Source: Parasporobacterium sp. (GTDB taxonomy: Bacteria; Bacillota; Clostridia; Lachnospirales; Lachnospiraceae). Taken from it: a stretch of 64,000 nucleotides of DNA. Every line of letters begins with the position of its first letter. The stretch's first letter is position 1. Below the pieces are notes generated by a model, which worked only from the letters and a program-made list of their open reading frames with translations, ran no database searches and had not been told where the DNA came from. Made by a program: the position numbers and the translations under genes. Below are positions 35,457 to 51,013 of the stretch, piece after piece. The DNA is taken from NCBI GenBank assembly GCA_017459985.1, contig JAFUBX010000035.1, positions 1 through 64,000 of the forward strand, written 5' to 3'.

Positions 35457-35576
35457 GGAAGGTTCCCGGTGAAGAATCCATTATTTCCGGGGTACGACCT
35501 TCCATTTTTTGGAATTTCCATGGAAAAACGGAAGGTACTCTATGGAAAATAAAGCATTTTTACCGGCTGACCTTCC
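35457..35576. repeat. Nested inverted repeats of GGAAGGT
   Basis: GGAAGGT occurs at 35457-35463 and 35530-35536 and its complement ACCTTCC at 35497-35503 and 35570-35576. This gives an inner hairpin (35497-35536, strengthened by TTTTT and AAAAA runs) inside an outer pair. The stretch carries no convincing reading frame and lies in the 750-base gap before the transglutaminase-like gene. Confidence 0.55.
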
Positions 35577-35677
35577 ACCCCGGGCAATCACAGTCATGCG
35601 GAAAACGAAAACCTATGATTCCGCATGACATTTTCATCTCCGAAGCAGGGCGGAATAAGAAGCTCGCCAGCGGTTTT

Positions 35678-35897
35678 ACCGCAATGCTGCATTTTTTCGT
35701 CAGCCGCCGTCAGAAAACTCACGCAATGCTGCAATTTTTCGTCAACGAGGCTTTCGAAGGGTTCATTTCTGCCGAAAAGCATACGCAATGCTGCATTTTT
35801 TCGGCAAAATCCGGGTCCAGGCGGACTGTCTGCCGAAAATCTCACGCAATGCTGCATTTTTTCGGCAGCCTCTGTCAAAAACATCGAGCATTGCGGT
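35678..35897. repeat. Short-repeat array 1 (CGCAATGCTGCA family)
   Basis: Four spaced copies of CGCAATGCTGCA followed by a T-run and CGGCA or CGTCA. The array starts with ACCGCAATGCT (35678-35688) and ends with its exact reverse complement AGCATTGCGGT (35887-35897). CTGCCGAAAA segments pair with TTTTCGGCAG segments, so each unit can form a stem with the core in the loop. Unit spacing is irregular, about 43-62 bases. The same family with the same ends is at 50708-50916. All three frames on both strands are open through parts of it, but the peptides are only repeat translations. Confidence 0.85.
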
Positions 35898-36122: not shown

Positions 36123-39100
36123 ATGAGAAGTTGGTTTAAGAAAATAAATGTCATTCTTCTGATCACTGCAATGACTATGACGATGGCTGCCTCAGCTGTC
36201 TGGGCAAATGAGGCGGACCTGTTGGAAGATCAGATACCGGAGACTGTGGAGACGGTTGAGGAAGAGGACACGGTCGTAGTAGAAACTGCAGGCGAAGACG
36301 AAGATCTGTCTTTGATCGAGGACTCGACAGCAGCCGGAGACGCAGATTTTGAAGAAGATACAGGCATGTCAGAAGATACGGTCACGGAAGAAACCGTGAG
36401 TGTGGAAGAAGATGCTGCCATAGATGACGATGCGATTCTGGAAGAAGAGACGGAAGAGGAGAGTCTTCCTGAAGACTGTTCAGAAGATGAAAATCTCTCG
36501 GAAGATGATTCAGAGAATGAAAGTCTCTCGGAAGATGATTCAGAGAATGAAAGTCTCTCGGAAGATGATTCAGAGAATGAAAGTCTCTCGGAAGATGATT
36601 CAGAGAATGAAAGTCTCTCGGAAGATGATTCGGAGGATGAAAATCTCTCTGAGGATGATTCGGAGGAAGAGATCGGGGAAGAGATCAGTGCAGATGAAGC
36701 GGACGCTGATTTCGAGGAAGCGGAAGAGGTTCCGGCAGAACGAGTTTCTTCTATAGAAATAGTCGGGGAGTATGAGCCGATCTTAGACCTGTCTTCGATG
36801 CAGGAAGAAATTGCAGATGAAGAAAATGAATCCGCAGACGATCTGGCTGAAGAGCCGGAGGTGGATCCTGAAAAGGAAATAGAAGTAAATACAGAAGAAA
36901 ATGCAGAAATGGAATCCTGGGATGAAGCTGTATCTGAGGAACCGGTAGCTGCGGCTGAGGAAATCGTTGTTGAAGTAGTCGTCGAGAAGCCCGTTGAGAA
37001 GGCAACAGAAGCAGCTCCCGAGACACCTGACGAAAAGGCAACAGAAGCTGCTGCTGAGAAGCCCGTCGAGAAGGAAACAGAAGCAGCTTCCGAGAAGCCT
37101 GTTGAGAAAAAGCCGGAGGCAGCCTCCCGGAAGCAAGCTGATAAAAAAGCGGAAAAACCTGCGCAGAAATCTGCAGAGAAAACAGTAGAAAAGCCTACTG
37201 AGAAAAAAACAGAAGTCACTCCTAAGACAGAAATAGCTCCTAAGACTGAAACAACTCCGAAGATAGAAGCCGCTCCAGTAAAGGAAGCTTCTGCAGAACC
37301 GGTTCCTGTTGAGAGCACAGCTGCCGCCCCCGCAGAAGCCACCGCCCCCGATGAAGCCTCAGCTCCGGTGGAATCGGCGCCTGTCGAGGTGAGTACGACG
37401 GTGATGATCGAATCCGTCGAGGAGTCAGAGGTTGTTGAGATCGCCAATGCGGTGATGATTTCTCCGGAAACTCCCGATGAGATCCCTCTGGCAAATTCCC
37501 CGGAGGAGATGGAAGTTACCGAGATCGTCGGCGAAGTAGCCGATTCCGGCGAGGGATATGTGCCGATGAAGATGGCTTCGGAGGATCTGCTGAAGGAATA
37601 TCTCATTCAGGCTGAGGACGATGGTCAGAACGATGCGGATGATTTTGCCGAATCAGAGGAAGAGGCTCTGTACGCCAGCAATTACAATGGCAGCAAATTG
37701 TCTGACATTACACTGGCTGCCTATAATGACCTGAAGGCGATTTCCGCCGATGTGGCAGCAGGAACCCTGACCAACACATTGTATACCTCCACCATTGACG
37801 GGGACGCCCTGTCCCAGTACAAATGGACCGCGGCGGATCTGGGGGTCGAGTCTTTGTTCGGGGATTCCACCAGAACCTCCATCAACAAAGCGGCAGCGAC
37901 CGCAGCCATCGACAGTGTGTACAATCCGGCGCTGGCAGTGAAGTCCCTGATCAGAGATTGCCCCTATGAACTGTATTGGTTCAGCAACCAGTATTCCATG
38001 GAGAAAACCTATGTCCCCGTCGTTTCTTACGACAAAGAACTCGGAGACTATGTGATGACCCTGAAATCCGTGACCCTGACGATCAACATGAAGGTCTCCA
38101 ATGATTACGCGGGAACGGACAGCTATTCCACCAGCGCGGACAAAATTGGCGAAGCCAAGAACGCAATGGTCAACGCGGACAGGATTGTTTCGGATGCAGC
38201 GGACAAGACCGACCTGGATAAGCTGGATTATTTCCGGGAGCAGATCTGCAAACTGGTGTCCTACAACAAAACAGTCACGGTTGACAATTACCCGGGCGGC
38301 TACGGAAACCCCTGGCAGCTGATCTATGTATTTGACGGAAATACCCGGACCAATGTGGTGTGCGAAGGCTATGCCAAGGCCTTCCAGTATCTGTGCGATA
38401 TGAGCAGTTTCAGTACCCCGGACCTGAAGGTTTACAGCGTTTCCGGTACCTTTGAAACGGAGACGGGATCTCCCGGCGGTCATCTGTGGAATATCGTTCA
38501 TATGGACGGAATCAATTATCTGGTGGACCTTACCAACAGCGACGATTCCACCCCGACCAGAAAGCTGTACATGGTTCAGCCGATCAGCGGCGATCTGGAC
38601 AGCGGCTATGTGTTCCAGACCGATACGACCAATTATACCTATAAATATTACAGCGATACCCGGATGATCTATTCTGATGAGGAACTGTCCTTCGATCTTC
38701 CGATCAGTCCCTCCGGGGACGTGCCTGCCGATGTGGATCCTCTGGTGGTGTCCAGAGATCTGTATCAGGGCTTGTACGGCGAGGATGTGCTGCAGCTGCA
38801 GCAGCGGCTTTCGGATCTGGGATATGAAGTTGCTGTGGACGGCGATTTTGGCGCCTATACAAAGACTGTTGTGGAATCTTTCCAGAACGATTACGGTCTG
38901 TATGTGGACGGCTGGGTAGGAAGCTATACGATTGAAATGATTAACAAAGCCCTGGCTGACCGTGCCGCAGGCGTAAGCACCACTCCCTCTTCAGGGTCAG
39001 CTTCCGGCAGCACTTCGGGCAGTACCTCCGGCAGCACTTCCGGCGGAAATACTTCGGGATCCGGAACGGCCGGTACCGCCTCCGGTTTCAGCCCGATTAC

Positions 39101-50565: not shown

Positions 50566-50707
50566 ATGATAAACGAAACAATTCAGCAGCTGTTTGACCG
50601 GAAGTCCATCAGGGTTTATCTGGATAAAGATATTCCGGAAAAAGACAAGGCCTTGATCCTGCAGGCTGCGGTCCAGATCCGTCTTTCCCGCAGGAGGAAA
50701 ACGCTCT
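50566..50707 (+). pseudogene. Truncated nitroreductase gene (5' remnant)
   Basis: The first 38 or so codons match the N-terminus of nitroreductase-family flavoproteins (ETIQQLFDRKSIRVYLDKDI and ILQAAVQ). After about base 50678 the similarity ends, the reading frame continues into arginine-rich sequence, and then into repeat array 2 at 50708. The FMN-binding core and C-terminus are absent. It looks like a gene cut by deletion or by insertion of the array, and the remaining peptide cannot be functional as a nitroreductase. Confidence 0.7.
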
Positions 50708-50916
50708 ACCGCAATGCTGCAGTTTTTCGTCAGGCTCTGCCGAAAATCTCACGCAATGCTGCAGTTTTTCGGCAGAAGGTCCAGATTTTACCGCAATGCT
50801 GCAGTTTTTCGGCAGATTTTACCGCAATGCTGCAACTTTTCGGCAGACTTGCCGAAAATCTCACGCAATGCTGCAATTTTTCGGCAGCCCCTGTCGAAAA
50901 CATCGAGCATTGCGGT
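50708..50916. repeat. Short-repeat array 2 (CGCAATGCTGCA family)
   Basis: Five copies of CGCAATGCTGCA, most followed by TTTTTCGGCAG or a close variant. The outer ends are ACCGCAATGCT (50708-50718) and its exact reverse complement AGCATTGCGGT (50906-50916), as in array 1. The final unit is nearly identical in both arrays (CATCGAGCATTGCGG). Alternating CTGCCGAAAA and TTTTCGGCAG can form stems. It abuts the nitroreductase remnant. Confidence 0.85.
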
Positions 50917-50980
50917 AACCGACCGGAATGCGGGACTGCTAGGCAAAAAAATATCAATTCCTTTGCAAGATGCGGTTTTA

Positions 50981-51013
50981 TTGTATAATACAATCACCTG
51001 ATTGTGGTATAAT
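50981..51013 (+). promoter_or_regulatory. Palindrome-rich promoter region of the permease-kinase gene
   Basis: A perfect 13-base palindrome TTGTATAATACAA (50981-50993) runs into CAATCACCTGATTG (50991-51004), and a second TATAAT lies at 51008-51013. Two alternative -10 boxes with overlapping inverted repeats suggest regulated initiation about 180 bases upstream of the gene. Confidence 0.4.

Follow-up and report, generated by a model that had tools for sequence, protein, structure and literature searches.

The question raised by this locus is what kind of DNA places four copies of one short core between exact inverted ends, at positions 35678..35897 of a 64,000-nucleotide window (the whole stretch that was analysed). 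The preliminary description had offered three options: a non-autonomous mobile repeat, a processed RNA, or a protein-binding array. Four exact copies of CGCAATGCTGCA start at 35680, 35722, 35784 and 35845 (core spacing 42, 62 and 61), and the exact 11-base inverted ends described around them were confirmed at 35678-35688 and 35887-35897. Five more exact copies form a second array at 50710, 50752, 50792, 50823 and 50864. With up to two mismatches allowed, CGCAATGCTGCA was found 15 times in the window, whereas 100 shuffles gave 4.68 matches on average and never more than 11.

BLAST in the own genome identified array 1 (35678..35897, + strand, 220 bp) as a complete copy of the main form of a repeat family, with two part-units, three 37-bp modules and two long spacers. 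The left inverted end, ACCGCAATGCT, lies at 35678..35688 on the + strand and the right one, which reads AGCATTGCGGT on the + strand, at 35887..35897 on the - strand. In 34 copies, found partly through their ends, CCGCAATGCT had 0 deviations in 340 positions and the right end had 3 in 340. The left terminal part-unit (35680..35702, +), corresponding to module positions 15-37, matched R1, a sequence-only model of the module, with 25.8 bits. Module 1 (35708..35744, +) matched R1 over 35714-35744 (positions 7-37, 39.6 bits), its full extent being set beyond that match by the 37-bp module rule; modules 2 (35770..35806, +) and 3 (35831..35867, +) scored 43.3 and 52.2 bits. Spacer B1 (35745..35769, +) is weakly conserved in sequence and nearly fixed in length in the family, array 1 being one of two copies in which it is 1 bp longer. 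Spacer B2 (35807..35830, +) was followed through its core-to-core length across copies, and the right terminal part-unit (35873..35897, +), a left arm and core ending in GGT, was recognised by comparing its letters with the module. Two details of the preliminary description held in part. The CGGCA tail is present in the last two copies, while the first two end in CGTCA; the CTGCCGAAAA/TTTTCGGCAG stem is exact in the last unit only and near-exact in the third (12-nt arms, 92% complementary).

The family extends far beyond the window. The own genome is a draft of 3.53 Mb in 131 contigs (94.75% complete, 4.98% contamination), in which the 12-mer CGCAWTGCTGCA, with its centre base free, occurs 203 times against about 0.8 expected for uniform sequence. 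The exact 12-mer occurs 123 times and the right end CGAGCATTGCGGT 46 times, both with reversed controls of 0. BLAST with array 1, in which the best 40 of 95 candidates were scored, gave at least 35 places of 217-220 bp at 81-90% identity, among them array 1 itself and one contig duplicate, and at least three places of 209 bp (74-75% identical). The 46 distinct copies examined are a lower bound, because only these 40 candidates were scored and the 12-mer places came from the first matches listed. Many dispersed copies with conserved ends, which had been anticipated for a true element, are thus borne out, and confinement of the core to two loci is excluded. Loci L019 and L044 were removed before counting because they share flanks with L016 and L062, L042 and L043 repeat L014 and L032 exactly or almost so, and L049 and L060 are family members outside the 46 copies. 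The small contigs C36, C37, C43 and C44 of G000 repeat loci of larger contigs with identical or near-identical flanks, perhaps as strain variants or assembly duplicates.

Comparison of 101 units gave the module as a 37-bp imperfect palindrome, TGYCRAAAAnCTCACGCAWTGCTGCAnTTTTTCGKCA. The ends are themselves part-units, with ACC, core and right arm at the left and left arm, core and GGT at the right. An element therefore runs from ACCGCAATGCT through one to several hairpin units of this palindrome, separated by spacers of nearly fixed length, to AGCATTGCGGT. Thirty-four of the 46 distinct copies form an aligned set of 217-220 bp, 29 of them exactly 219 bp. In the remaining 12, with lengths between 55 and 340 bp, it is mainly the number of modules that differs: two of 55 bp, one of 97 bp, two of 158 bp, three of 209 bp, one of 198 bp, the six-unit L041 of 340 bp, and the irregular L036 and L057. 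GCAWTGC cores lie 42, 61, 61 and 42 bp apart in the main form, other forms lose or gain such steps, and the size classes of 55, 97, 158, 219 and 340 bp differ by whole steps. Three hybrid copies carry one end type twice (left type in L012, right type in L028 and L033), as would be expected from recombination between copies. Array 2 (50708..50916, +) belongs to a 209-bp subfamily with a 31-bp step mid-element, where GATTTTACCGCAATGCTGCA occurs twice; L054, L060 and L061, and partly L036 and L049, are of the same kind, and a GATTTT tag recurs within this subfamily.

Modules and spacers have fared very differently. Mean pairwise differences were 0.032 for ends, 0.053 for cores and 0.082 for arms versus 0.46 and 0.43 for the two long spacers. 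The core-to-core distance across B1 was 61 bp in 30 of 33 copies, 62 in two and 59 in one, and across B2 it was 61 bp in all 33 (L053 was left out of both). The median spacer distance to the nearest relative, with pairs among L001, L002, L003, L008 and L012 excluded, was 0.29 (0.07-0.40). Half of this value, if the spacers drift without constraint, predicts about 5 changes per 37-bp module and 4-5 at its 31 fixed positions. Of 102 modules, 73 had no deviation, 23 had one and 6 had two when the variants allowed at the six variable positions are ignored. One L053 module was missed by the pattern and enters this count but not the 101 units of the consensus and the pairing test. When the best module of each copy was dropped to allow for the way the copies were found, 33 deviations remained in 68 modules. 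With the variable positions included, nearest neighbours differed by 0.035-0.098 over ends, cores and arms, so that the contrast between modules and spacers is several-fold rather than absolute. Because dead mobile copies should decay, the intact modules count against reading the family as mobile elements. Judged from these letters, intact modules in seemingly old copies suggest either that all lineages kept hopping or that the modules were held in place, and one genome fits both.

We examined how far the family reaches. In 13 genomes of the same genus the 12-mer occurred 0-4 times each, one of them also having one control match, and R1, with stricter filters, had 0 matches in 13 of 13; in the other 131 relatives it gave one weak match each in 6. 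Of 299 family genomes, a 20-base pattern matched the own genome alone (167 matches); in a species-genome collection it gave 6 single matches in unrelated taxa, about 4 being estimated by chance. The family was not found among the viral contigs, plasmids and phages searched. These family, species, viral, plasmid and phage collections may omit near relatives of the window's genome, and on such searches the family appears so far to be known from one genome, and one species, only. A literature search on the letters gave no paper with the 14- or 22-base forms and two with the 12-mer, unrelated by title, and a search on the kind of element gave no description of the family among the matches listed.

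With genes called by a home-made codon score, the raw counts for the intergenic settings of the 46 copies are 28 tandem, 10 convergent and 8 divergent; L012, L017, L024 and L027 overlap a called ORF of 176-404 aa. By hand count, 11 of the 28 tandem copies point with the genes and 17 against. Flanks were compared in 39 copies, that is, the 46 minus L007 (false outer end) and L002, L004, L012, L028, L033 and L055 (ends off pattern), and this set favours intact ends because copies with off-pattern ends were excluded. Before the left end (A/G)(A/T)TTT is preferred, and the first base after the right end is A in 32 of 39. When the copies were read as TA-CCGCAATGC...GCATTGCGG-TA, 28 of the 39 had TA on the left and 30 had it on the right; 21 copies had both. 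The IS630/mariner group duplicates TA on insertion. TA on both sides could be such a duplication or just part of the end, and because both sides carry it in only 21 of 39 it may be an end preference. Target duplications, for which the preliminary description had proposed comparing the flanks, were not significant at any length from 2 to 12 in 37 copies (best z 3.1 among 891 combinations).

One site could be compared with relatives. L026 lies between genes that we take, from sequence, to be rsmA and tatD. Both genes are present in G301 and G300, where 32 and 51 bp separate the aligned parts, compared with 393 bp in the own genome, and the element is missing; it is likewise missing between the homologues of the two genes in G299 and G305. 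On either side of the element, the additional DNA of the own genome contains copies of a further short repeat. The site is empty in relatives at this one locus, where their gaps are too diverged for an exact empty site to be placed to the base. A candidate empty site within the genome, at GGTCCGATCAGG, was rejected since the one element-free copy examined looks like unrelated coding sequence. In the gap equivalent to L026, G307 has a 60-bp tandem repeat of its own, accompanied by an inverted copy (L076:406-434 and 588-734). The idea that each genus member has its own high-copy repeat at this site was dropped, since the G307 repeat, sought in 14 genus genomes, turned up at that single locus.

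A mover of the family was also sought. The genome-wide search, made with PF01797 and PF13358 in the 94.75% complete draft, did not find a transposase with family ends. PF01797 (Y1_Tnp) matched two places only; neither 3.4-kb locus has family ends, and each match is followed by an ORF that is presumably TnpB. The sole match to PF13358 (DDE_3) was below the cut-off, in an apparent phage terminase. A second high-copy repeat, R2, is a hairpin CTATCCCTG...CAGGGATAG between GGACC and GGTCC, for instance at L002:1721-1921, L031:1380-1750, L003 and L008; several R2 copies adjoin the modular element and some are in tandem. BLAST with R2 gave at least 56 matches in the own genome (best 40 of 63 candidates scored). 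A family end stands beside R2 blocks at ten loci (L031, L032/L043, L034, L039, L045, L046, L051, L052, L056 and L059), and of these L031 alone has both exact ends in its stretch (about 986 bp). This long form contains no ORF of more than 102 aa wholly between its ends, five ORFs from four of the ten loci matched no Pfam family above cut-off, and no autonomous copy was seen in the loci examined. About 100 bp from the long form, at L031:674-1207, is an ORF with below-cut-off matches to DUF6431 and ISL3 transposases.

Could the element act as a transcribed, processed or regulatory RNA, or as a coding element? Array 1 folds well, both as single-stranded DNA (z -4.48, 0/200 shuffles as good) and as RNA (z -3.43, 1/200), and the RNAalifold consensus of 34 copies pairs the two ends at -32.5 kcal/mol. 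The best antidiagonal Stouffer z for spacer covariation was 4.3 over 5 pairs in B1 (uncorrected) and 2.6 in B2, and for the three + frames 19, 23 and 23 of 34 copies have no stop from one end of the element to the other, compared with 0, 3 and 0 for the - frames. However, the compensatory stem changes that had been named as support for an element were not found in 101 units: at the variable positions of the arms, pairing with either possible partner was no better than after shuffling. This counts against a conserved RNA or hairpin fold and against the processed-RNA option. The covariation in the two spacers gives no consistent helix, and the signals in B1 are weak and uncorrected. Three + frames open alike suggest modules without stops rather than one coding frame; copies in tandem settings point both with and against the genes; the window has no Rfam match at gathering score, six loci gave one chance-level match (E 0.88) outside the element, and no terminator-like site lies beside array 1. 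An RNA or coding role is, in our estimate, quite improbable. G and C do not occur at the palindrome centre; 58 of the 101 units have T there and 43 have A, a split compatible with 1:1 (p 0.16). This balance, with arms that do not co-vary, points to recognition of a symmetric double-stranded site and not of a folded strand. Protein binding to double-stranded DNA would fit the modules better than an RNA or hairpin fold, and a protein-binding array, the third of the original options, may be what the modules are.

The modules might, by whatever means they spread, be domesticated chromosomal binding arrays, now kept by selection because a host DNA-binding protein (a nucleoid, segregation or global regulator) uses them. 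The slight divergence of ends, cores and arms (3-8%) versus the long spacers (43-46%), the none to two deviations per module against 4-5 predicted, and the 61-bp spacing held in 30/33 and 33/33 copies all argue for it. Continued hopping of all lineages, however, would equally keep modules intact, and the contrast is only several-fold once variable positions are included (3.5-9.8% between nearest neighbours). The copies have no evident bias of gene orientation or setting (no background rate), and their absence from 13 of 13 genus mates argues against an old general function. We regard such arrays as a minority possibility. A bolder form of it, which we offer tentatively as speculation, is that about 200 sites make up a genome-wide network serving a single DNA-binding protein that is species-specific and two-fold symmetric; a mobile element would have spread the sites, and selection would now keep them in place with the 42/61-bp spacing constrained; a mobile repeat would then have turned into a chromosome-organising or regulatory array. 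Single-stranded hairpins that a RAYT or another Y1 (HUH) transposase moves, GATTT being their 5' tag, would account for a flank preference that is mainly left, the lack of significant target duplication, hairpins better than shuffled and the GATTTT of the 209-bp subfamily. As described in the cited excerpts, REP/BIME systems with RAYT share palindromic extragenic units, composite arrays and a preferred tag on one side with this family (PMC2817692, PMC3733652). They differ from it in that here no RAYT was found, the arms show no compensation, and the main form is 219 bp with fixed ends. Palindromes of Stenotrophomonas were preserved by complementary mutations according to the excerpt of PMC2817692, which the present ones were not. 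A cognate Y1 RAYT gene flanked by the repeats was not found in the draft genome, where absence is not final, and the two PF01797 places lack matching ends. We therefore think a REP/REPIN-like origin unlikely. CRISPR arrays are near-identical repeats separated by variable stretches, and near-identical 37-bp repeats with variable stretches of about 24 bp between them do look like repeat and spacer; an assembly artefact could be suspected from the contig duplicates L016=L019 and L044=L062. But the copies are dispersed over loci with different flanks and different sequences, each has the same two related spacers, and part-units stand at both ends. The earlier dismissal of CRISPR and of a simple tandem repeat is upheld, and these explanations, an artefact included, are hardly credible.

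We consider it probable that the arrays belong to a new family of mobile elements that are modular and non-autonomous, resemble MITEs and are built along the lines of the pneumococcal BOX elements. The mobile option of the preliminary description is supported by the dispersed copies with conserved ends and by relatives without the element at one syntenic site. A putative trans-acting transposase, possibly lost, would have had its binding sites in the palindromic modules and the terminal part-modules, and may have inserted the element at T-rich sites, perhaps duplicating TA. Recombination between copies would then have let them grow or shrink by whole-module steps. The reader of the modules is predicted to be a two-fold symmetric protein acting on double-stranded DNA. 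This is a real, bounded family, ordinary in kind and new in sequence and build.

By analogy of build, the BOX element of Streptococcus pneumoniae, boxA-boxB(n)-boxC in the cited excerpt (PMC3049150), is the closest kind. Both have end modules with a variable number of an internal module; as far as that excerpt goes, inverted ends, a position between genes, other repeat families alongside and no certain transposase are also shared (PMC3049150). BOX is reported there to cause target-site duplications (PMC3049150), whereas none was significant here. The units here derive from one 37-bp palindrome with spacers nearly fixed in length, unlike BOX, the two being compared by description and not by sequence. 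The excerpt reports BOX as over-represented between convergent genes (PMC3049150); here 10/46 copies are so placed, with no background rate. MITEs such as Correia and BrickBuilt are described in the part of PMC10969869 cited as short, with terminal inverted repeats and many copies. The present family is likewise short and dispersed in high copy number; it ends in terminal inverted repeats and carries no gene (the + frames are open in all three alike). It differs from those MITEs (PMC10969869) in that no related insertion sequence and no significant target duplication were found here. A Porphyromonas MITE contains an internal repeat (minisatellite), as here, in the excerpt of PMC4596501. The family, found in no other genome searched, adds to the small set of modular bacterial repeats with uncertain mover. 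Its intact modules and drifted spacers make it testable whether such repeats are only parasites or binding sites held on to by the cell.

Several other features lie near the elements. An ORF at 50566-50988 of the window runs straight into array 2, as if a gene were truncated there; its start resembles what we take to be a nitroreductase, with no Pfam match. Just left of array 1, at 35457-35580, GGAAGGT...ACCTTCC inverted repeats, with similar motifs in L031, suggest a fourth repeat family. A large protein that also has peptidoglycan-binding domains contains tandem repeats of ESLSEDDSEN in its acidic part, encoded at 36480-36660 of the window. Some copies of the element (for instance at L026, L053, L016 and L046) have a third short repeat next to them, GTCATGCGTTTTTC...TTTTCCGCATGAC, and at L026 two identical 40-bp stretches (1420-1459 and 1727-1766) flank the element.
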